Of a stretch of 64,000 bases of DNA, positions 22,301-58,677 are shown one piece after another (the first letter of the stretch is position 1; every line of letters begins with the position of its first letter). The translations under genes and the position numbers were made by a program. Where the stretch lies: positions 18,956,701-19,020,700 of the forward strand of contig JAVTVX010000016.1 of assembly GCA_033439265.1 (NCBI GenBank), in the 5' to 3' direction. The notes under the pieces are model-generated. The model was not told where the DNA came from and made no database searches. It saw nothing but the letters and a program-made list of their open reading frames with translations. Origin of the DNA: Dillenia suffruticosa (Eukaryota; Streptophyta; Magnoliopsida; Dilleniales; Dilleniaceae).

Positions 22301-25300
22301 AAAGGCATATGAGTTTAATAATCAGCTTAATTGTCATATGACCAACAGTTACAAATAATCTTTTTTTTTTTTGGTTTCTGAACAGAAACGATAATTGGGA
22401 GCTAAAAAGAGGTACTAACCATTAAATGGTGCTCAAATGGCAGGAGGGTTCACCTGTTCATTTATTTTAGAAGGCTAGCTCTGTTTGTAATAGCAATAGA
22501 ACCATTACTTGTTTCAAAACTTGCCACATGGTTGCTATTGCTTGAAATTTAGTTGGCTTATCTACAGATATAGATCTTGAATCAGTTCTACATAGCTAAT
22601 CAAGAGTTGGGAGAAAAGAAAGAGTCATGCACTTTTTTAGTGGACTAAGAGGATTTCCTTAAGGCTTTTGTAAAAAGGGCTCTTTGCATGCCATGAAGGC
22701 CGGAGCGATGGTGAAACCTTTGGGGCTATTTCTCTTAAAAGTCAATAGCAAATGACCCTTTTAACCTGTGGAATATTTTGGAGGATAGCTTCATGCATAA
22801 AAAAATGTTTGGCCAAAATAAATGATTGTATCATCAAGTAGGCTGCCTTTGTTTTATGAAAGTTGAATGGAGATCCATCAAATGTAGAATAACAGTCATT
22901 CTACACCATGGCATTAGTTAGTTTGACAAGCATTTGAGGACATATTTCTTGAAACTGTTGAAAAGAACCATTAGTGTCAGTTCACATTCCTTGAGGAAAT
23001 AAGCTAAAGACTGTGGGTGAATGTTCAAGAGTGATCTCACAGATCATATTGCAGGCAGGCATTCATCTCAAATTATTGGAGTAATATTGTGTCATTAACC
23101 ACATAATATTTACCTTTCATCTTTAATTTATGCCACCTGCAGATATTTGTGTTCTTACTTGTCATCTTGCCCTTTATGTGAAAGCATGTTCTTGTTAGTA
23201 TCATTTTTCTCTATTTCCTTTTTTTTCTTTGGTGAAATAATATGCATGAAAAGAGTAGATATCATCTCTCTCGTCATTGTGAGATCTTGTAGTGGGTTTC
23301 GTTGCCAATTCTTTCAGGCATTATTCTATTCAGCTTTACTTTGTGCACGAGAGATGCTTGCTCCAGAGGATGGATCAGCTGACCTCATCAGAGCTTTAAA
23401 TAATCGTCTGGTTGCCCTATCATTCCACATAAGAGGGTATTACTGGATTGATATGGGAAAACTGAATGAGATTTACCGCTACAAGACTGAAGAGTACTCA
23501 TATGATGCTGTGAATAAGTTCAACATCTACCCTGATCAGATCCCTCCTTGGCTGGTTGAGTGGTTGCCCAATAAGGGAGGCTATCTAATTGGAAACTTGC
23601 AACCAGCTCACATGGACTTCCGCTTCTTTTCTATGGGAAACTTGTGGTCTGTGGTAAGCAGTCTTTCAACAATGGATCAATCTCATGCCATTTTGGATCT
23701 CATTGAAGCCAAATGGTCAGATTTGGTAGCAGATATGCCATTCAAGATATGCTACCCTGCTCTTGAAGGGCAAGAGTGGCAGATAATCACTGGATGTGAT
23801 CCTAAGAACACGTAAGATTCCTTGCTTGCCTTGTGGTTGAAAACATATATCATGGAAGACTAAGAAATTAAAGGTGGTGAACTTTGAGAAAACAGTATAG
23901 AACATTTAAGATAATCTTTAACTGATGTCTTTATTCATAAGCTAAAATTATACTTCCCACCCTACAAATATTTCCAAGATAGCAAATGAACAATCAATGT
24001 CATTCAAATATCATTGTTATTATGATTTGGTTTTAGATGAGATGATTTGTAAAGTGGAATGCAATACAAGTATCTCACTTGTATTGACAATAGCAACATA
24101 AAGAATCACTAAAGTGCTTGAGAAGTGTCCTGGAAATATTTGTTCAGGTTAACAAGGATGACAAAAGCTGGGCATGCCATGGGGCATTTCCTGTACTTGA
24201 TTTGCGAGTGTTAGGTGGTTGCTTTGTTTGATAAGGTGTCCTACATTGGTTTTTGGTTGAAATATTTTTCCATGATATCAGAGTAAAACAGCTGCATATT
24301 TAATGTGAAAGGTGCAAATGGAAAAGTATGTCATTACAATCTTGTTGGTTAAACAATGAAGCCTTGTGTTATGCTTTCATTTCTCATTACCAGTTTCTGT
24401 GTTGCAGGCCTTGGTCCTATCACAATGGTGGTTCCTGGCCAACATTGCTATGGCAGGTTTGTTATTGTTGTCTTTTCCAATTTTAATTAGAGGGTGTTTG
24501 AAGCCCTTTTCTTTCGAAAGGCCCTGCAAATGAACATTTCAATGTGGTCTTGATTAATGTAGTTCCTAGGGATGCTTTAGACATTTTGCACCGGATAGCT
24601 GTGTAGCTTGGATAATGTTAAAGAGCTGATTGGTTTTATATTAAGTGCTTTTTGGGTCTTGAAATCTATTCCTGCGTTTTGAATGCATGTTATCCTATTC
24701 TTTCTTTCTTTCTTTTTTCCTCCTTTAATCTATTTGTGGATAATAAATGACTTCAGAATTCAGTAACATGCTTGCCCATCTCAGATACCTTCAAGCGTGT
24801 TGGCAACACTTTCTATACACACGTTACATAGTTGAATATCCTATAATGGAGATGATCTGAAGTAAAAGCTTAAAACAGTTCAATTTTCACTTTCTATTTG
24901 ACTAGAAAGCTATATCATAGTTTAGTAGAGAACTGAGTCTCTATTGTGTGAAATTGTTACAAATCCCATATTGGATTTCCAAAAAATCATAAAATAGTAT
25001 TTAAGTCTAATAGATTCTCTTACCCAACATGTCAATCTTTTGGGTTGAGTTCTCCTATTGAGATTGAGTCCATCACTTGGGTTCGTGACAAATTTGTATC
25101 AAAGTATCGACTCCTTGGCCACGGGCAGAATCAATGGTAGAAGGCACTCGTCAAAAGCACAATGATGATCAAATCAAGAAACAAGATGCCAATATACATG
25201 AACTCACGAATGAAGTTAAAGAGATCCGCAAGATGGTCAGTGAGCAATCCTTAAGACTTATCAAAAGGATAAAAATGAAGAAGTTAACTTTGAAAGGGTG

Positions 25301-28300
25301 TTTAACCCTTCCCCGTTACCTACACCCATTGAAATACCAGCCGAAGGAAGGTAAAGGATGGAAGGGGAATCTCATACGGTCAAGAGAGACCATAATACTC
25401 AAGGGTTAATTCCCAACCTGCCCAAGATTGAACTTCCAATCTTTCTTGGAGAAAACCCACGCGCATGGTTAAGGAAATGTCATAAGTTTTTCACTATGTA
25501 TCAAATTCCGAGTCATCAATGGGTAGACACGGTGGAAATCTACTTAGAAGGTAAGGCTGAAACCTGGTTCCGAGGTTTGAATTTGATAAAGGACCTAAGT
25601 TGGAAAGAGTTCTCAAGGGTGCTGTGCCAAAGATTCGAAACCAAAGGATTGCAAGATGAAATAGAAGAATTCAATAAACTACAACAAACTGGTTCTCTAG
25701 TTGAATATCAGGAAAGATTTGAAGAGCTTCTGTCAATAATGCTTCACAAGAATCCAAAACTTACTGAATCTTATTTCATTTCTAGCTTCATTAGTGGAGT
25801 TAGAAACGATATTAAACTAATGTTAAGAATGATGAAGCCAACCACACTCTTCCAAGCCTTTGAAATTGCAACATTGCAGGAACACTCTCTTGAATTAGCA
25901 AGGAAAGAAAAGGTTAATATCAACAAGCATTGCGATCCTGGGTAGAATTGGATTTCATCATAGCTTAGTTTCCATCCTTGAGGGCAAGGATACTTTGAAG
26001 GAGGGGAAAATTGTAACAAACTAGGAAGAGTTTTCAAAAGTAACGTCTGGGTATAACTACCATATGTTTGTCCAGCTGAGTGAATAAGCTTCAATGGCAA
26101 CTATAATTGACAATTAGTTAGGTTGTTTAGTTTGCTAGTTTGTTAGGAAATTGGCTAAGGCCATTGTATAAGAAGGAATCCAAGCAAAAGGAATGAAAGA
26201 CCGGAATGTTCTTTGTTTTCTGAAACTCTCCCTCTCCCTCTGCTTCTCTCTCTCTCTCTCTCTCTCCCTCAATCATTCTTTCAATCTATAATCCTTTACA
26301 ATATTTCTTTACCACCATAAGTGAACACCAATCCTCACATCCAAGCCATTTCTCATGCCCTGCTACCCAAGTGATGGACTCAAGCCCAATAGGAGAGCTC
26401 AACCCAAAAGATCGACCTATTAAGTGAGAGAGTCTATTGGACTTAAATACTTTTTTATGATTTTTTAGAGATCCAATGTGGGATTCGTAACATTACCCTC
26501 CCTTTGAGAAGCCGGATGTCTACGGACGACTCTCACTCTAGACGGCTTTCACATTGGATGGCTCTCACTCCGACACCAAACAACCCTTTTTCATTTTGGA
26601 TAGCTCTCACTTTGACATCAGGTAGCCTTCTTCCAGGAAACCCTTTTTTATGTTAAACTGGAGGCTCTGATACTAATTTGTCATGAACTAGGAGAACTCA
26701 ATTCAAAAGATCGACCTGTTGGATGAGACAGTCTATTGAATTTAAATGATTTCTTGGGGATCCAATGTGAGATTTGTAACATTTTTCTCCCTTTGAGAAG
26801 TCGGACGTCCACGGACGGCTTTCACTCTGGATGACTCTCACTCTAGCGGGTAGCCCTTTTCCTCTTTGGACGGCTCTCACTCCGATACCAGATAACTCTT
26901 TTCCATTTTGGACAGCTCTCAATCTGGCACCAGATAGCCCTTTTCCAAGTAGCCCTCTTCTAGGTAGCCCTTTTCCATATTAAACCGGAGGCTCTGATAC
27001 CAATTTGTCATGAACCCAAGTAATGGACTAAAACCCAATCGGAGAACTCAATCCAAAAGATCGACTTGTTGGGTAAGAGAGTCTATTGGACTTAAGTACT
27101 ATTTTATGATTTCTTGGGGATCCATTGTGGGATTCGTGCATGCTCTGTTTTCTTTACTTTTGAATAGTCTGAAGTCCAACGTCCCTCTTTCCTTTGGCTC
27201 TAAGCAAGATTATGATAAATTGGTATCAAAGCCTCCGATTTAACATGGAAAATGGCTACTTGGTGTCAGAGTGAGAACCATCCAAAGAGGAAAAAGGCTA
27301 CCCGCCAGAGCAAGAGCCGTCCAGAGTAAGAGCCGTCCGTGGACGTCCGGCTTTTTAAGGGTAGGGTAATGTTACGAATCCTACATTAGATCCCCAAGAA
27401 ATCATAAAATAGTATTTAAATCCAATAGGCTTTCTCACCCAACAGGTCGATCTTTTGGGTTGAGTTTTCCTATTGGACTTGAGTCCATTACTTGGATTCA
27501 TGACAAAAATTCTTGTTTTGTTCCCCCTGGGTCAACATAAGATTGTGCACTCAACGCCATTAATGTGATACTTTTGGTTTCTATATATTCATAAGAGAGC
27601 AGTGTTTTTATTGCAGATAAGTGGTTTGAAATACGCAATATGTACTCACATAGAAAAGTTCTTATTCTGTATAAAATTACATTGTAGAAAATCTTATTTT
27701 CAACTTTTAGGAGTGCTCATATCCTTGTAACATTATCTCAGCCGTGTGTTTCAGTGTTTGTACCATACAAATTTAAAATGATATTAAAGTTGCCTAATTT
27801 AAGGAAATGATTTTAGACAGGAATGAATGGTATAGAAGAATCTGAACTAGTTGAATTATTATTGTTATTACTACTGCTAATATTTTAAGTTTCTATTGAT
27901 AGTTTATTTTTGTTTCTTTCTTTTTATTATTTTTAGTTTTATTTTCTCTATTTTTACTTTCAAACTTTATTGCTATGTTATTCTTTTTTTTTTTTTCCTT
28001 TTTCCTCTCTTCAATATTGGTAGCCTCAGCTTCTTATTGTTGTATTAAAGTTGCCTAATTACTGACCTAGCATGGCATTGTCATGGTTTTGGGGGGCGAC
28101 ACACTTCCATTATGATTCATCCTCAATACATTATTAAATTTTTAGTATGCTACTTGGCTTTAATGTTTTATGTTTTGGGGTGGCGACACACTTCCATTTT
28201 GATTCATCCTCAATACATTATTAAATTTTTAGTATGCTACTTGGCTTTAATGTTATATGGAACGTAATGTAACATCCTAGATGCCTTTTGCAGCTCACTG

Positions 28301-28590
28301 TTGCATGCTTAAAGATGAATAGACCTGGAATTGCAGCAAAAGCTGTTGAGGTTGCTGAGAGGCGCATATCACGGGACAAGTGGCCTGAATACTATGACAC
28401 AAAAAGAGGGAGGTTCATAGGCAAACAAGCACGTCTGTTTCAGACATGGTCAATCGCAGGTTACCTTGTGGCAAAGCAACTCCTTGCAAGCCCCAGCAAA
28501 GCCAAGATTTTGATTACTGAAGAGGACTCTGATTTGGTCAATGCATTCTCTTGCATGATTAGTGCTAACCCGAGACGAAAACGAAACTGA
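19377..28590 (+). CDS. A/N-INV: Alkaline/neutral invertase (GH100), organelle-targeted type
   Basis: Hydrolyses sucrose to glucose and fructose at neutral-alkaline pH. Six exons: 19377-20102, 21047-21212, 21306-21517, 23318-23811, 24408-24456, 28294-28590; all junctions are GT-AG and keep frame, giving 647 residues. The start is the ATG at 19377; the longer open frame from 19347 begins with GTG. Residues 1 to about 165 are variable, rich in Ser/Arg/Lys and fit a plastid or mitochondrial transit region; the GH100 domain runs from about 170 (EDEAWELL) to near the C-terminus (SANPRRKRN). Hallmarks: [118 protein letters not shown] and [20 protein letters not shown]. The sequence is closest in my memory to the plastid INVE type, but the targeting call is inference. 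Intron 5 (3.8 kb) carries a composite retroelement and a tandem duplication. No lesion seen in the coding sequence. Confidence 0.95.
24955..25090 (+). repeat. TRIM-like LTR, left outer copy
   Basis: 136 bases, TGTTAC...GTGACA, followed at once by aatttgtatcaaagta, a degenerate tRNA-iMet primer-binding site. Confidence 0.8.
25134..25945 (+). pseudogene. Ty3/gypsy gag remnant, frameshifted
   Basis: Two overlapping frames together resemble a Ty3/gypsy gag. The first (25134-25409) has a coiled-coil-like N-terminus (MVEGTRQK, then [16 protein letters not shown]). The second (25358-25945) carries the Retrotrans_gag-type core with [46 protein letters not shown] and [13 protein letters not shown]. 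The frames differ, so the gene is broken near 25360-25410, and the zinc knuckle, protease and pol that should follow are absent. It sits in a host intron and is not expected to be functional. Confidence 0.85.
26012..26339 (+). repeat. Probable 3' LTR of the gag-bearing gypsy element
   Basis: A polypurine tract (ttgaaggaggggaaaa, 25995-26010) precedes TGTAACAAACTAGG. The segment contains a TATA-like gtataagaagg near 26165, a (CT)n tract near 26248-26266 and a plausible CA end at 26339 (atcctcaca). It is unrelated in sequence to the 136-base TRIM-like LTR. No matching left copy is present, so the right boundary is uncertain. Confidence 0.55.
26364..26491 (-). repeat. TRIM-like LTR, inverted copy A
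   Basis: Reverse complement of the 136-base LTR, complete at the TGTTAC end (26491) but with its last few bases replaced near 26364. Confidence 0.8.
26492..26678 (-). mobile_element. TRIM-like internal region, inverted copy 1
   Basis: On the minus strand this runs from a primer-binding site (aattagtatcagagcc) through repeated words related to gagagc..tcc and ggacgactctcact (plus-strand form) to a purine-rich stretch (ctcaaagggaggg) just before the next LTR. It encodes nothing. Confidence 0.7.
26679..26781 (-). repeat. TRIM-like LTR, inverted copy B with internal deletion
   Basis: Reverse-orientation LTR (plus strand tgtcatgaac...ttgtaaca), about 103 bases; roughly 30 bases after tgtcatgaac present in other copies are missing. 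Confidence 0.8.
26782..27005 (-). mobile_element. TRIM-like internal region, inverted copy 2
   Basis: Same organisation as copy 1: a minus-strand primer site (aattggtatcagagcctccg), several near-repeats of the word tagcccttttcca (plus strand), and a purine-rich stretch before LTR copy B. Confidence 0.7.
27006..27140 (-). repeat. TRIM-like LTR, inverted copy C
   Basis: Nearly full-length reverse LTR beginning tgtcatgaacccaag and ending gggattcgtgca on the plus strand; the terminal taaca is altered. Confidence 0.8.
27215..27369 (+). mobile_element. TRIM-like internal region, forward copy
   Basis: Starts with a primer-binding site aaattggtatcaaagcctccg, continues with gagagccgtcc-type repeats, and ends with a purine-rich stretch (taagggtagggtaa) directly before the right outer LTR. 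Confidence 0.7.
27370..27505 (+). repeat. TRIM-like LTR, right outer copy
   Basis: 136 bases, TGTTACGAATCC...TTCATGACA; the same length and orientation as the left outer copy. Confidence 0.8.
28087..28256. repeat. Tandem duplication, 86-bp period, beside exon 6 of invertase
   Basis: Copy 1 begins at ttttggggggcgacacac (28087), copy 2 at ttttggggtggcgacacac (28173). Both continue ttccatt.tgattcatcc then tcaatacattattaaattt with few differences. The second copy ends about 37 bases before the exon 6 acceptor, so it sits over the likely branch-point zone. Confidence 0.92.
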
Positions 28591-30882
<2,292 letters not shown>

Positions 30883-30959
30883 CCCGCATCCCCATTTCTC
30901 CTTTTCTCATTTCGAATCATCTCCCATGCACCAAAGACAGCTTTTAAGTACATGTGTCG

Positions 30960-40033: not shown

Positions 40034-43000
40034 TCAATTTTGATGGAGTGAGAGCATCCCAGTCATATATTGTTTTCTGACCTTCTTGTATTTCTCAAGC
40101 AGTATATTGTAGATGCTTTTGACATCCTCAAACACTACTACAGAACAGAATTCCGACTTAAGCTGCATAAAAGTTTGCTCAGCACTGTGTCTGCATTCCA
40201 CCAACAGACCAAAACAATTTTCTTCTACCAGAAAAGGATTGTTTACTACACTGCCACCTATTATTTCTCCATCCTCATCAAGATTCTGAAGCCATCTCAG
40301 CTTATGAAAAGGATCTTCATTTTTCTGAATAGCCTCTTCTATTCTCCTTTTCGCATTTAAGAATGTTGCCTTGGTGACAATTTTACTTATCAATTGGTTA
40401 AAATTGGCTCTATTATTCAGATCTAGTTTGGCTCTGGCATCATCTGGCAGATTATGTACAGCAACCAAACAAGCCTTCCGAAAGGCAGGATCAGAATCAC
40501 CAACCATCTGGATCGAAATATGCAATAGATTTGAACAAACAGAGTGGAGAATTCCAGATAAAGAATCACTTGATTCATAATGCGTTTGCTTCTGTTTCTG
40601 TAGCCAGGAATGAAGTGCCACATGAACAAACCCCTCCCACCTGAAATTCACAAGAAAGGAGGTAAATGAAATTACATGTGAAACTATTGGAATTACTAAA
40701 GCCAAATCCAAACAGCGAACTAACTATGTAAGATCTTTATCCCCCACTTAAAAACAGCATGCATTTTACCATTTTCACTTGTATTTTCCTTCAAGCTACA
40801 TCAGTAAGTTATAAGTGGGCATTGAAACAAAATGATGGCGAACCTGTGCTTCTACAGGACCAGGAAACATCAGACACATCCATGGCTCAGCTTTTGCAAG
40901 GATGCTGGGTCCAATTGTCCGACAGAAACACATGACAATAATAAAACAATTAGATGACATACATATGCAAGTCCACATGCCTTGTTGAATAGCTCAAAAC
41001 AAAAGATGGAATCAACAATTTAATGATAAGATGAGTTTTTTTTTCCTATTCCTTCTTTTCTTTTCTTTTCTTTTTTATTTTTTTTTCAGGGGCAGGATGA
41101 ATACAAGGTTTATCACTAACGAGAAGAGAACCTGTCATCAATTTTTAGATGATCATAATACTGGCCATCATTGTAAAGACTGGAAAATAAGAAAATAAGC
41201 TAGAGTATAGATGTAGTAATCGGATGCTAGCAGCAAGGATGCATCAGAAAACTCTAGGGAATAAGCAGCCAACTAGAGTGAAGAAGTTTGGAGCAATACT
41301 GTTAAAAGCACTAGGTGTTGCTAAGGACCTTAAAGAAAAGCTACAGTCATGAGAAGAATAAGAAAAGTCAAAGGAAGAAATGAATGTTTTTCACTTCTAA
41401 AAAAAATGCTTGGAAATAAAATCTAAAAAGCAAACATAATCAGATAAATTGTCCACATAAGTTGACAGGGCCCTGAATTTGACCCTCCTGGGAAAGGAAA
41501 CCGCGATTTGGACCTAAAGAAGAAAAAGAGAAAGACCAAGAATAAGAATGCTTGGAAATAAAATCTAAAAAGCAAACATAATCAGATAAATTGTCTCCAT
41601 AAGTTGACAAGGCCATGAGTTTGACCTGAATTTGACCCTCCTGGGAAAGGAAATGACCATTTGGACCTATAGAAGAAAAAAGAAAGACCAAGAAAACGTA
41701 TGCATGGAAATAAAATCTAAAAAGCAAACATAATCAGATAAATTGTCAACATAAGGTGACAGGGCCCTGAATTTGACCCTCATGGGAAAGGAGAATCGTA
41801 CTTAAAACCCAAGTGAAGCAAGTGATTTATGACTTCCAGAATATTGATACTAACCATGCATCTGCATCAGGAAAAATCTGCAACTAGGTTAAAATGTCTA
41901 AGTGATAATCACACAGAAGGTCAAACTAGATATCACTCAACTGCTAGAAATCATTCCAAGCATCATCACTATCCCATATTAACTCCAAAAAATAGCCAGC
42001 AATAAAACAACTAAGACAAACAAAAGCAGCCAATAAGAAAACTATACTCACTCGAATGGAGGCTCAATCTCAATTCCAAGCGTCAAGTGCAACGAAAATG
42101 GAGCTAGATCATTGGCCCCACCATTATCAGCAGTTGTGCAAGCCACATGGGCAAAACCTCTAGGAATATACAAAACATCTCCTTCTCTTAGAACAATTTG
42201 TTTAGAATCAACCTCTGATGTTTCAACCTCAAAATTGTGTACTCTCTGAAGAGGTTCATACAGACGAGGGAGTTGAACCATTGGCTTAGAGGATATCTTC
42301 CATCGTTTTGTTCCTAGAATTTGGCATATGAAAACACAATGGTCATCATAATGACAAGCCAAACCCTGACTATTAGGTGGAGTAAGATACATATTTACAC
42401 CCGATGAGGGTTGACCAAATAGAGCTGCTAACTCTTCTGCAACAGAAGCAATACTTTTATAGCGGAATTCCATTCCACGGATGGCGATTGTATAACCTTC
42501 TTTGAAAGCTCTTTCGGATGCAATGATATCATCATGATGCAGAACATGAGAAGCACTGCTGCAACGGGGGCCTGAGCTCTCCTGAAAGAAATGCAGTTCT
42601 CTTTTTAAGTGAGTTGATGTTTTCACTACTCGTATGTCCTGTCCACATATCAGGGGACACCCCAATTGCTTTCTTATCTCTATTAGGAATCTAAATATGT
42701 CTAGCTGATCTGAAGCAATGGGCAGACAAGAAACCATTTTTTTAAGTAGAGAAGATACCGATAAGACTTGATTGCAATAGTCGAGAGATTGTAAAAATGA
42801 ATTGAATGGAACACTGCACTTATTTGTTGGCCTTGAGTGCCTTTTTATTAGCAGTGGCGATATCTCCCACTGGTCAAACAAAAAATCCTCAAAACTAGAA
42901 TTACATGTATCAAAGATCTCTCTTTTGACCATATCAGATGTGAAATCAGCTATAGAAGTCTGGGAAGATTTTATGGAGAGCCTGAAAATGGTTTCAGCAA

Positions 43001-45276
43001 GATCATGTTTTTTAATGCTGCTCCAACGGGAATCTTCATATTGCTTGCATTGGCAAACATTGCTAACACAGCCTAGATGCTCAAAATGCACATATGCCCA
43101 TAGCTCTTTCAAAAAAATTAAGAAAGTTTCGGAAAGCATCCACGGTATCCTCTCCAGGTTCCCAAAGTTGCAGGCGTTAACAAGTGTTATAGCTGCGTCA
43201 AGCAGTAATAATGCAAGTTCATCTCCAATGAACCCTATTTTATAACAGTAATCATTTCCCTTGCTCACCATGCATCCAGAAATGAATTTTGTTGATGATT
43301 CAGAAACCTGAAGGAATTTACAGCTAATAAATGTCATGTCAGATTTAAGCAAGACAAATTGGTGTTAATAGAAGGTAGAACAAAAAGACACAATGAATTT
43401 TTCCTCCAACTTTTTCCTTTCTTTTTGGTGGTTGAGGTGGTTGAGAGGGCGGGTGTTTGTGGTTTGGATTTTGTAAAGAACTCAAGTAAAGAATTTCTAG
43501 AAAATCAACAAAGGCAAGCCTTCTGGCCCTTTCTTTTTCCTTTATGAACCGGCATATCTGCATATGCAATATATTGAAGACCATTATTTGATCAGACTGA
43601 CAGTGTCAAATTTTTCCTCTTTGTATGTAAAGAAGATGTACTATGAGAGAGAGAGGAAAAAAAAACGCATGAATATATACATAAATTATTTTTATAATGA
43701 GGAAAGTCACACAGAATCATCCTTAAAAACAGTGGATGCCACCAAATTTCTAGCTCAACTCATGGCCTGCCAAAGCACGGGATATGCCCTTTCTCTCAAA
43801 GGTGTTTCAGATTCTTAAAGACTATTTCATAACTTTTTGAAGCACGGATGAATGTTGCAAAACTATGCTAGGAAAAATTTTCAAGAGAAAATGCATGGTG
43901 GTGTTTTCACTCCTTTCTAGAGGAAGTTTGTTAGAGGAAGGAATATGGCACGTCCTCCTAGAAAGCAAACAGCAAAGTAAAAGGTGCTAATCTATCTAAG
44001 AAGTCTTCAAATAGATACTCCTAAATGCTCCAGATCCATGGCACCATAAAAAGGAAATAAACATCATTATAAACCACGAAATGGAAGTCGAAGAATTGAT
44101 TTTTGAAGATTCTAAGATTTGTTTCAATTCAAAGACACTGAATAAATCCTTGAAATGTCTAAGTTCCTCGGGTAATTTTAGAATCTAAAGAAACGTGACG
44201 GTTCTGAAGAACCAAAGGTTGATACTCCGTGCTCTAAAGACAGTGCATTGCAAAAGAAGCTCGAGTTTAGATACTCACATTAACCTCTCCAATGCAGAAA
44301 ACTCGAGAAGCTTATTACGACCAATAGAAGTCGTGGACAAATCCAATAATGCATTACAAGCAGCCACAGAGACAGCTCTATCAGAAACCATTGAAGCAGA
44401 TAACAAACCCCCTATGATTTCACCATCAGAAGCAATCATCTCATTCATTTCAATCGACAATAATGAAGCTGCCCCAACAATCTCCGCACATAAAGATGAA
44501 AATTCAGCACATCTGCCATGAAAAATTCAAGTAATCATTAAATTTACAAAACCCGATTGGCAAATTTTATAGAAGGAAAAGAACCAGATAGAATTCAATA
44601 CACCTACTATAAATTTTTAAATAATCAGGAAATTAATGGAAAACCAATTTAACAACTAGAAGAAGAAATACAGAGAGGGAGACAGAGAGAGAGAGAGAGA
44701 GAGTGTGTGTGTGTGTTCATCTCATCTGCCATAAAAATGTACAAATATCCATAGAATTTACGACGGCCCAATTAGCAACTGAACAATGAAATAAAAATAA
44801 AAACAGGAAAATGATTTAGAATTTCAAATGATCATATAAAACCAAATTGAAACAAGATAACAAGAAAGACAAACAGAGAGAGAGAGAGAGAGAGAGAATT
44901 CAACACCTTTAGCATAAGTTTTTCAGATAATCACAAAATTCATGAAACCCAATAAGCATTTACATTAAAACAAGAAAACCCTAGAGAGAGAGAGAGAGAA
45001 GAGAGAGTACTTGGAATTGAGAAAGAGTGGAAGCAATGACAGGAGAGGAGGGGAAAGCGGCTTATGCGCACGAGATAGTCTAAGTGTTTTCAAACAATTC
45101 TTGATTAGAGATTGAGAACTGGGAATTTGAGTGCCAAAGCTTGCAGCAAGCATGAGAGCGAAAATAGTGTCTGAATCCGCACGTTTAAGGGTTGAAGAAG
45201 ATGATAGAGACTTGTTGTTTCTTCTCCTCTTCTGTCTTCTACTGGTATTATCCTCCATCTCCACCCTGTTTTCCAT
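40034..45276 (-). CDS. JmjC/cupin ribosomal oxygenase-like protein (NO66/MINA type)
   Basis: Four exons, 45276-45011, 44512-44279, 43323-42052 and 40640-40034, with GT-AG junctions that keep frame give 792 residues. The start is the ATG at 45276; the frame just upstream begins with GTG. Residues 1-30 carry a basic SRRQKRRRNNK nuclear-signal-like block; 40 to about 300 form a helical, repeat-like N-terminal region. The JmjC/Cupin_4 core has VNMYLTPPNSQGLACHYDDH with the iron-binding H-x-D near residues 491/493, ILGTKRWKI, EGDVLYIPRGFAHVA with the distal His near 559, then the winged-helix-like C-terminal part. These are marks of Fe(II)/2-oxoglutarate oxygenases that hydroxylate ribosomal-protein histidines; histone demethylation is also claimed for NO66. 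The exon 3 acceptor at 43323 (ttattag) was chosen because the nearby ttccttcag acceptor at 43307 breaks frame. The substrate here is inference. Confidence 0.9.
41407..41795. repeat. Threefold tandem repeat in intron 3 of the JmjC gene
   Basis: Copies begin near 41407, 41549 and 41701 (periods 142 and 152), the last partial. Each contains tggaaataaaatctaaaaag, caaacataatcagataaattg, gttgac or ggtgac, and gaatttgaccctc. The second copy has an extra partial tgagtttgacc. Confidence 0.93.
44686..45006. repeat. Purine microsatellites in intron 1 of the JmjC gene
   Basis: (AG)n then (GT)n at about 44686-44716, (AG)n at 44876-44898 and (AG)n at 44983-45006, the last ending immediately beside the exon 1 donor. 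Confidence 0.9.
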
Positions 45277-57516: not shown

Positions 57517-58677
57517 ATGAAGAACTTGTTGCATTTGTGGGTTCTATTCCTTTTCATCATTTGCCTTACATCAACTTCAATTGAAGCTCAGACCGGCTAT
57601 GGAGGTCATAAGGTCAAGCCACGACTGGTGCGATGCCGAGACCCTTCTTTTGGCAAATGCTTCTTGTTTTGGTTCCGTTGTCCCCCAGAGTGCCCCACAA
57701 CATGCTTGGTTGATTGTGGTGCATGCAAGCCGGTTTGCAGTAAGTTTACAAACTCAGCTCTTTGTGACCATTTGAGTAAGAAATTATATGCTTTAGCCAA
57801 ACAATCATTTAATATGCTCTCCAACTTGAGTATTCTTTCAAAAGTTTGAGATGATATTATTCTCAAATTTTCTTGCACGGTTTTGATTTATACAACAGGT
57901 TGCAATCTCCCTGGAGCAGTTTGTCAAGACCCTCGATTTGTAGGAGGTGATGGCATAACCTTCTACTTCCATGGCCGGAAAGATCAAGACTTTTGCTTAG
58001 TTTCAGATACCAATCTCCACATCAATGCTCACTTCATAGGCAAGCGAAACCCTAAACTTAAGAGGGACTTCACGTGGGTACAATCCATTGGAGTTATGTT
58101 CAACAGCCACAAGCTTCACATTTCAGCCATGAAGACATCAAAGTGGGACAAAAATGTGGACCGGATAATCCTACACTATAACAACATGCCCATTTTGCTC
58201 CCTGCTAATGAAGGTGCCATGTGGCAATCTCTTACTGCACCACTTGTCACGATTAAGCGAACTAGCGACGTGAACGGAGTTTTGGTCGAAGTAGATGGAA
58301 GTTTTAAGGTTAAGGTGGGTGTGGTTCCAATCACCCCAGAAGAGTCTAAAGTGCATGGCTATGATATTACGGATGAGGATTGCTTCGCTCATTTGGAATT
58401 AGGGTTTAAATTTTATAACCTAACTCAAATGGTGGATGGAATTCTAGGGCAAACCTATAGTAAAAACTATGTGAGCAAGGCCAACTTGGGAACACCGATG
58501 CCGGTATTAGGTGGCTTACACAAGTACTTATCTTCCAACATTTTCTCTACTGATTGCCCAGTAACACGATTTGGTGTAGAAAATGGAAGGGTTTCTAAAG
58601 AAAGTGAAGCTATGGAGTATGCAAGCTTGAGTTGTACTAGTGGAAAGAAGGGAACTGGCATGGTTTGCAAGCGATAG
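57517..58677 (+). CDS. Root-cap-domain secreted protein (LEA-related)
   Basis: Two exons, 57517-57739 and 57899-58677; the join (TGC A / GT TGC) is in frame and GT-AG, giving 333 residues. The signal peptide is MKNLLHLWVLFLFIICLTST with likely cleavage near residue 24-25 (IEA/QT). A Cys-rich segment follows (CPPECPTTCLVDCGACKPVC, about residues 54-73). Then comes the root-cap-type domain: DPRFVGGDGITFYFHGRKDQ, FCLVSDTNLHINAHFIGKRN, FTWVQSIGVMF and, near the end, GILGQTYS and FSTDCPVTRF. Plant proteins with this Root_cap region are secreted, are often called late-embryogenesis-abundant-like, and have no proven biochemical activity. A decayed partial copy lies about 1.2 kb downstream (59845-60070), so the locus was once duplicated. 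A possible poly(A) signal AATAAAA lies near 58767. Confidence 0.88.

Follow-up and report, generated by a model that had tools for sequence, protein, structure and literature searches.

A probable heterodimer of a TRIM and a gypsy-type gag-only element, joined at the primer-binding site, in an invertase intron of Dillenia suffruticosa

An intron of an alkaline/neutral invertase gene of Dillenia suffruticosa carries a chimeric LTR element in which a gypsy-type gag region stands between the two LTRs of a TRIM, and this raises the question of how two unlike retrotransposons came to be joined in a single structure. The window, meaning the whole stretch of DNA analysed, comprises 64,000 nucleotides, and its numbering is used throughout.

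Anatomy of the chimeric element

The features of the locus, with their strand where one applies, are the following.

24409..24456, +, invertase exon 5' of the intron (16-residue translation; upstream ORFs match GH100)
24950..24954, flank on the left, gaaat, one copy of the presumed target duplication (4/5 match with 27506-27510)
24955..25090, +, TRIM LTR A, 5' LTR of the chimera (TGTTAC..GTGACA, 136 bp)
25085..25105, +, junction 1: TRIM LTR to the left, gypsy-type body to the right, common LTR end and primer-binding site (PBS)
25106..26011, +, gypsy-type gag-only body, PPT at 26000-26010 (PF03732, PF19259; complete copies elsewhere)
25358-25945, +, remnant of the gag ORF with a broken frame (the body has a short deletion against other copies)
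26012..26355, +, first part of the gypsy-type LTR, which the nested array splits (continuous with 27141-27217 in L002, L006 and L010)
26356..27140, -, nested tandem TRIM array, inverted, three LTRs and two internal regions (edges accurate to a few bases)
26356..26492, -, TRIM LTR B, its 3' end divergent or eroded
26679..26781, -, TRIM LTR D, about 100 bp long owing to two internal gaps, and a PBS at 26660-26675
27006..27140, -, TRIM LTR C, its 5' end divergent or eroded, and a PBS at 26987-27002
27141..27217, +, last part of the gypsy-type LTR (88-97% identity to nine non-self places in the genome)
27212..27235, +, junction 2: gypsy LTR end and common PBS, then TRIM internal region
27236..27369, +, TRIM internal region, PPT directly before LTR E
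27370..27505, +, TRIM LTR E, 136 bp, forming the 3' LTR of the chimera
27506..27510, flank on the right, aaaat, the other copy of the presumed target duplication (compared with the left flank and with mispaired TRIM flanks)
28294..28465, +, exon 3' of the intron (56-residue translation, 3' edge approximate), taken as the next invertase exon by its likeness to invertase

From 5' to 3' the element consists of TRIM LTR A, PBS, gypsy-type gag body, PPT, gypsy LTR, PBS, TRIM internal region and TRIM LTR E, an anatomy read directly from the sequence, as is the nesting of a further TRIM array inside the gypsy LTR. An earlier note on this DNA had counted five TRIM LTR copies between 24955 and 27505, and a BLAST search of the window with LTR A returned the other four far above chance (E values of 5e-39 for B and C, 3e-37 for E and 1e-12 for D). 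The outer copies A and E are direct and 136 bp long and B, D and C are inverted, as the note had stated, while the length of 136 bases that it gave to all five does not hold for D. PBS-like sequences do adjoin the LTRs, at 26660-26675, 26987-27002 and 27221-27236, with a more diverged one at about 25094-25105; the PBS pattern matched three times against a chance mean of 0.67, and at least three matches occurred in 2 of 100 shuffles.

A simple TRIM was rightly considered insufficient to explain the locus. On the right, the TRIM piece lacks a 5' LTR, and the gypsy LTR passes directly into the PBS of that piece. The segment previously described as unrelated and LTR-like is an LTR of gypsy type, and the inverted block is not its limit: it resumes at 27141-27217, with the inverted LTRs inside it. 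L010 is 96% identical to this last part over 79 bp, and the option that 27138-27211 was filler DNA was ruled out by the genome copies showing the gypsy LTR.

The inverted block B-D-C has the order LTR-internal-LTR-internal-LTR in a single orientation on the minus strand, and it is nested within the gypsy LTR, because the LTR copies elsewhere (L002, L006, L010) are uninterrupted. CATGC occurs on both sides of the array, a parse that leaves the array LTR ends 2-3 bases short, and about 10 bp were lost at the array site when compared with the longer gypsy LTR variant (L010). In the terms of the part of Gao 2016 (PMC4717578) dealing with tandemly arrayed TRIMs, where an array from maize that holds two TRIMs in inverted orientation is shown, B-D-C is an L3I2 array, and the L033 locus of the present genome is an L4I3 array. 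What sets the outer skeleton of the window element apart from those arrays is the gypsy-type gag element that forms one of its bodies.

Both junctions between TRIM and gypsy sequence fall within a stretch of about 20 bp, made of LTR end and PBS, that is common to the two families. At junction 1, C11 (described below) is the only one of 52 other genome matches that extends clearly beyond. With the junction 2 query, gypsy-type copies match up to position 72-85, or 95-99 where the PBS follows, TRIM copies start at 72 or later, and none of the 52 non-self matches covers both sides. The earlier note had let its interpretation depend on the TRIM-LTR/gag junction being found at other loci; the window chimera itself did not reappear among the scored matches (40 candidates in each of two scorings), whereas the same type of junction does recur with independent partners. 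The outer LTRs and the gaaat/aaaat flanks fit one insertion unit, as had been suggested, although the 4/5 match of the flanks is imperfect and counts against integration as a single unit.

The TRIM family and its gag-only partner

The TRIM has 136-bp LTRs around an internal region of about 150-225 bp, and 26 of the 29 multi-LTR loci measured 405-529 bp end to end, the others being L033 (the array) and L026 and L028 (hybrid). A TGGTATCAGAG-like PBS follows the LTR, and in the copies inspected a purine-rich GGGGAGGGTAA-like PPT precedes the 3' LTR; the primer is presumably tRNA-iMet. After a boundary filter had removed two of the 29 loci, the flanks of 15 of the 27 well-bounded ones, among them the C27 hybrid itself, matched at 4 or more of 5 positions, and those of 9 at 5/5, as for a 5-bp target duplication, whereas only 17 of 702 mispaired flanks reached at least 4/5. 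The TRIM parts contain no ORF of at least 150 aa in 26356-27505, Rfam gave no match on the window, and one TRIM LTR pattern, run against viral contigs, brought up no relatives.

Outer-LTR divergence, which had been proposed as a test, turned out to be uninformative in this old family. LTRs A and E are 83.8% identical, and other pairs among the five LTRs of the window lie closer together (distances of 16% for A-E, 13% for A-B and 12% for C-E); the nine informative columns conflict, and none joins A and E alone. Among 68 TRIM LTRs the own partner of an LTR ranked from 1 to 67, with a median of 31.5 of 67, so that the divergence test is almost powerless here. The 28 within-element distances have a mean of 0.225, raised by damaged copies, and a median of 0.204, barely different from the mean of 0.231 for 1919 pairs across elements, and on both counts dating by LTR divergence was rejected.

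The gag of the window is of Ty3/gypsy type, with scores over the cut-off for PF03732 (47.1 bits; E 2.9e-12, in agreement with the gag fragment first noticed) and PF19259 (44.2 bits). Complete gag-only copies (L034, L035, L036, L038) are 1.8-2.0 kb long, with LTR pairs 79-87% identical around a PBS and a gag, a length that leaves no room for pol; of the other family copies L030 is shorter, L031 more distant and L037 without a readable LTR pair. The partner is therefore a TR-GAG-like family whose gag-only make-up is inherent, and these complete copies rule out the capture of a pol-deleted element. The idea of a gypsy gag captured with TRIM ends likewise fails, since the gypsy body retains its PPT and LTR. 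The likeness to TR-GAG elements, in the description of them in PMC10552921 that bears on structure, lies in the LTR pair, PBS and gag without pol; in the window copy, by contrast, a TRIM LTR replaces the 5' LTR and the gag frame is broken. Viral and prokaryote collections searched with the gag protein gave no relatives, as expected for a plant sequence.

PBS-joined hybrids elsewhere in the genome

Further hybrids were recognised in the same genome, with the ends of C12, C11 and C4 placed by eye. C27 is two-sided with the TRIM outside, as in the window, and has flanks AAGGG/AAGGA (4/5). The reciprocal arrangement, with the TRIM inside, occurs in C11 and C4. C11 is a longer gag-pol gypsy element with protease and RT domains (Pfam), an LTR pair matching at 397/447 (89%), a badly diverged 5' PBS and flanks GCATC/ACATC (4/5), its body having been read except for about 1.9 kb. 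C4 is a gag-pol gypsy element with an LTR pair 93.3% identical and RVT_1 and integrase H2C2 domains, and no target duplication was recognised at its ends. In C5 the TRIM stands beside a copia gag across a PBS junction, from which the locus was read, though not to its 5' end.

C17 and C12 are one-sided, with 5' and 3' LTRs of different kinds (putatively so for the 5' LTR of C12) and with 5/5 flanks, GAGGT/GAGGT and TCTCC/TCTCC respectively. The edges of the 531-bp 5' LTR of C17 were set by other copies, some paired about 5 kb apart; it ends in TTAACA, not GTGACA, and the sole clear homology at its junction is therefore the PBS with the preceding AAT.

All the junctions read at C27, C11, C4, C5, C17 and C12 lie at the LTR end/PBS, and both this position and the 5/5 flanks of the one-sided hybrids are direct readings of the DNA. 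With the window element included, flanks match at 4/5 or 5/5 in five of the six hybrids for which they were examined, and about 1 in 10 TRIM LTR-PBS sites enters a foreign body, in a small sample chosen by similarity. The partners comprise the gag-only gypsy family, gag-pol gypsy elements and a copia element, and the same junction type with independent partners supports a recurrent mechanism.

Several other candidates were rejected as hybrids. L064 (C15) is an ordinary nested insert in a TRIM with its own GGCTT duplication, and L063 (C1) an antisense-looking LTR element nested in a TRIM LTR. In L070-L073 and L075-L077 the TRIM internal region follows the LTR, some copies having later been broken; in L092 a partner-type LTR begins just past the TRIM LTR end, probably by plain insertion. 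L074, taken for a TRIM, proved to be a copy of the partner family.

Origin and meaning of the hybrids

The window locus is probably an old heterodimeric LTR element, PBS-joined by intermolecular second-strand transfer during reverse transcription. We infer that this copy was joined before integration and that the TRIM and gypsy RNAs had been co-packaged. The TRIM and the gag-only gypsy-type element would have been reverse transcribed side by side, the plus-strand strong-stop DNA of both ending in the same primer-derived PBS; at second strand transfer each strong-stop DNA would anneal to the minus strand of the other element, giving a circle of the two elements linked through both their PBSs. 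Opening of the circle through the TRIM LTR would yield TRIM LTR-PBS-gypsy body-gypsy LTR-PBS-TRIM internal-TRIM LTR, which integrase would insert with a 5-bp duplication, opening through the partner LTR would give the reciprocal form (C11, C4), and a single swapped transfer would produce one-sided hybrids (C17, C12). The inverted tandem TRIM array was also inserted into the gypsy LTR. Nesting and template switching, offered earlier as alternatives, would thus both be involved, as two separate layers.

In support of this transfer, both two-sided forms occur, and the ordinary nested insertions (C15, C1) look different from the PBS-joined hybrids. Second strand transfer takes place in the PBS, with a U5/gag breakpoint when it is intermolecular (PMC5651808, in the part on strand transfer), and end-joining factors exploit PBS microhomology at this step (PMC12786077, in the part concerned). 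The template-switching complexes of Sabot and Schulman 2007 (PMC1950507), in the sections on their structure, similarly have two elements per unit, which share an LTR between them, carry LTRs of a single kind at the ends and are bounded by a target duplication, and they are attributed to co-packaged RNAs. In the model as set out there, however, the switch occurs at R between similar elements; here it would occur at the PBS between elements with unlike LTRs and bodies, and one-sided and reciprocal forms are present as well. Template-switching complexes and TRIM arrays are already known; no account of PBS-joined hybrids of unlike families in plants, one- or two-sided, was found in the full-text literature searched, from which most subscription papers are absent. 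A soybean study of 2010 by Du reportedly, by its title, concerns LTR swapping between autonomous and nonautonomous elements.

For the two-sided cases the chief competing explanation is homologous cDNA insertion, whereby a gypsy one-LTR circle or a PBS-ended linear cDNA would have recombined at the PBS of a resident TRIM, independently of integrase, by homology or microhomology. It predicts exactly the order LTR-PBS-body-LTR-PBS-body-LTR with the target duplication outside, and the two-sided forms alone can also be explained in this way; moreover, integrase-defective Tf1 reportedly goes most often into sites of partial homology, the PBS and PPT among them, and one-LTR circles guided by the PBS have been described (both from the relevant part of PMC12786077). 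The one-sided C17 and C12, with their unlike LTRs and 5/5 flanks, are not easily obtained by such recombination at a resident element, which would also use about 14-21 bp of homology though the genome offered complete LTRs of several hundred bp at other places; we consider it unlikely.

The two remaining explanations appear far less probable still. Ordinary nested integrase insertions with later deletions do have parallels, in the inverted array within the gypsy LTR and in other TRIMs with ordinary inserts, but chance would have to account for an inner gypsy element without a 5' LTR or its own duplication, for two breaks on the same 20 bp or so, and for the use of that site with several other partners, which makes this origin highly improbable. 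Ectopic recombination at the PBS between resident elements, neighbouring or distant, after integration, would be in keeping with the unequal crossing over suggested from tandem TRIM arrangement (PMC4528315, in the passage concerned). It would require two exact exchanges for the two-sided structure, and target duplications are missing around complexes that arose by recombination, according to the pertinent section of Sabot and Schulman (PMC1950507), contrary to the flank matches found here; we give it equally little credence.

The second-strand transfer favoured above bears on how TRIMs move, a process that is poorly understood. A PBS hybrid links a TRIM to one partner during reverse transcription, so that partners become readable from genomes and hybrids may identify the elements co-packaged with TRIMs; they also reveal second strand transfer, usually invisible in genomic copies, as a point of LTR exchange between unlike elements. 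It is possible, though we advance this joint reading tentatively, that PBS heterodimers are a general and fairly common replication by-product of plant LTR elements, that TRIMs are copied in gypsy and copia particles, of whose co-packaging the hybrids would be a fossil record, that some 'autonomous' TRIM relatives such as OsajLTRA10 are heterodimers, and that full-length carriers could spread a TRIM as a passenger.

The rice element OsajLTRA10 is presented in the part of Gao 2016 (PMC4717578) devoted to it as a large 'putative autonomous' TRIM relative with TRIM LTRs, from which the TRIM derived by internal deletion; larger relatives were found there for 11 of 289 TRIM subfamilies. A near-identical 25-bp sequence containing TGGTATCAGAGCC flanks its breakpoint on both sides, and by analogy with the PBS-joined hybrids we propose that OsajLTRA10 may instead be a PBS heterodimer. 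If relatives of this type are heterodimers, the descent inferred from large element to TRIM is wrong. The hybrids are also a caution for annotation, as long elements with TRIM LTRs are not necessarily TRIM ancestors.

Structure of the window chimera and its gypsy-type partner

The five LTR copies described in the earlier note were confirmed within the chimera (24955-27505), A and E being direct and full length (136 bp) and B, D and C inverted, and the gag fragment scored above the cut-off for both Retrotrans_gag and Ty3_capsid. The host genome was queried with the 2551-base chimera, returning 114 matches from 40 scored candidates out of 1248. Several gypsy-type copies matched the query up to about position 1407 and resumed at about 2183-2260, so that segments 26012-26355 and 27141-27217 are two pieces of one gypsy-type LTR. 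On these alignments, the inverted TRIM block (26356-27140) is nested inside this LTR, which is uninterrupted at the nesting point and carries no TRIM block in the fetched loci L002, L006 (both LTRs) and L010. The nested block is a tandem TRIM array with three LTRs and two internals; such arrays are common among plants according to PMC4717578, and one host locus (L033) has four LTRs. Without the nested array, the skeleton reads TRIM LTR A-PBS-gag body-PPT-gypsy LTR-PBS-TRIM internal-TRIM LTR E.

The gypsy partner belongs to a family whose members encode gag but no pol. Loci L034, L035, L036 and L038 are complete copies of 1.8-2.0 kb with the order LTR-PBS-gag-LTR and no room for pol, and their LTR pairs are 79-87% identical. 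In L002, L003, L006 and the window, 82 bp separate the end of the gag match from the LTR; in L005 the spacing is about 80. The gag of the window copy is broken and was left so. At L032:3067-3783 (contig C8) a solo gypsy-type LTR lies between 122-bp direct repeats of 96% identity, far exceeding the normal length of a target duplication.

Junctions at the LTR end and PBS, and further hybrids

TRIM and gypsy have similar LTR ends and about 20 bp in common across the LTR end and PBS, GTGACAAATTGGTATCAGAG, and both window junctions (25085-25105 and 27212-27235) fall inside this stretch. When window 27137-27300, spanning junction 2, was searched against the host genome, none of the 52 non-self matches covered both sides: nine gypsy-type matches stopped at 72-85, or, if followed by a PBS, at 95-99, whilst TRIM matches started no earlier than 72. 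The junction 1 query (window 24955-25200) returned 52 other matches, window LTR C being one; among these scored matches gypsy copies started at 129-131 and TRIM copies stopped no later than 159 (the PBS ends near 151), except for a locus on contig C11, the only one to continue to 168. The next longest TRIM matches, on C10 (to 159) and C2 (to 156), proved on reading to be ordinary TRIMs.

Hybrids found in the host genome, named by contig, with fetched loci in brackets. Two-sided hybrids have both joins at the PBS, reciprocal ones carry the TRIM inside the partner, and one-sided ones have unlike 5' and 3' LTRs.
C27 (L028/L065), TRIM outside: TRIM LTR-PBS-different body-PPT-like stretch-its own LTR-PBS-TRIM internal-TRIM LTR; flanks AAGGG/AAGGA
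C11 (L078/L069/L067/L068), reciprocal: gypsy LTR-diverged PBS-TRIM internal-TRIM LTR-PBS-gag and pol of a longer gypsy-PPT-gypsy LTR; flanks GCATC/ACATC; outer LTRs 397/447 identical
C4 (L110), reciprocal as at C11; outer LTRs 93.3% identical over 479 columns
C5 (L111), read without its 5' end: TRIM internal-TRIM LTR-PBS-copia-type gag (PF14223 + PF14244)
C17 (L062), one-sided: 531-bp foreign LTR-PBS-TRIM internal-TRIM LTR; flanks GAGGT/GAGGT
C12 (L029), one-sided: different 5' LTR-PBS-gag-PPT-window-type gypsy LTR; flanks TCTCC/TCTCC

The C27 partner has a relative, L074 (C2), in which such an LTR end stands beside its own PBS and body. The C11 gypsy body, read except for about 1.9 kb, contains RVP_2 and RVT_1 above cut-off; at C4, RVT_1 and Integrase_H2C2 were above cut-off and rve below, and no target duplication was recognised in the inspected flanks. 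The edges of the C17 foreign LTR were fixed from other copies, some of them paired about 5 kb apart, and a search of some 15 kb upstream revealed no TRIM LTR. The putative 5' LTR at C12 was identified solely from its ends and the flank match.

The 53 junction 1 matches provided 31 TRIM LTR ends (28 likely 5' or truncated ends and three others), and a script located a PBS-like stretch in 25 of them. TRIM internal sequence follows in 22 of these 25, including L105, which appears truncated by eye; the other three are C4, C5 and L094. As this list, from which C11 was also drawn, was selected for similarity to the window junction, the hybrid share is not an unbiased rate. In L094 (C21:15657490-15657640) the TRIM LTR and PBS are followed by neither clear TRIM internal sequence nor a recognised element. 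At L092 (C19:15485731-15485881, minus strand) a TRIM LTR end and a few bases precede an apparent LTR start of the C27-partner type, probably a plain insertion.

At least four of five flank bases matched in 15 of 27 well-bounded multi-LTR TRIM loci, the C27 hybrid among them, and all five in nine, after a boundary filter that removed two further loci; mispaired TRIM flanks matched at four or more bases in 17 of 702 control pairs. Flanks were examined for six hybrids, the window chimera included, and agreed at 5/5 in two, at 4/5 in three and not at C4. Two TRIM loci carrying ordinary inserts have the structure predicted for integrase insertion. An insert of about 3 kb (L064:4967-7953, C15) lies in a TRIM directly before the PPT with a GGCTT target duplication.

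Proposed exchange at strand transfer and its main rival

In the usual model, copying of the primer tRNA gives plus-strand strong-stop DNA a terminal PBS, through which it pairs with the complementary PBS that terminates the minus strand. PMC5651808 places second strand transfer in the PBS and derives a U5/gag breakpoint from its intermolecular form. PMC12786077 describes alternative end-joining factors exploiting PBS microhomology at this step, yielding one-LTR circles. If two different elements with a common PBS were together in one particle, a single swapped transfer would give a one-sided hybrid, and swapping both would give a circular heterodimer able to open via either LTR. All three predicted products, the one-sided form and both openings of the heterodimer, were found in the host genome. 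The main rival is homologous insertion of cDNA into a resident PBS, which would yield two-sided products only and may account for some of those observed. In Gao 2016 (PMC4717578), a rice TRIM relative has a near-identical 25-bp sequence with TGGTATCAGAGCC on each side of the breakpoint, the pattern expected of a PBS heterodimer; it might be one, which would be the boldest extension of the present finding.

Age and host intron

A and E are 16% apart and are not the closest pair among the five copies, but the comparison of LTR divergence proposed in the earlier note is nearly powerless here. In this TRIM family, within-element LTR distances have a median of 0.204 and a mean of 0.225 (raised by damaged copies), between-element distances have a mean of 0.231, and the true partner of an LTR comes, in the median, at rank 31.5 of 67. 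The window insertion is old.

The window corresponds to C16:18956701-19020700 of the plant's own genome (G000, 596 Mb), and the chimera is intronic, in a gene for alkaline/neutral invertase. Two ORFs upstream of this intron carry GH100 domains, and both bordering exons were translated (16 and 56 protein letters). Further features of the window are as follows.
28094-28254, same intron, downstream: a direct repeat of about 80 bp in two near-identical copies, cgacacacttccatt...ggctttaatgtt
30736-30885: low-complexity repeat to which the CT-rich part of the gypsy LTR aligned many times
42048-43352, minus: ORF with JmjC_2 domain, a neighbouring plant gene
57883-58677, plus: ORF with Root_cap domain, a neighbouring plant gene
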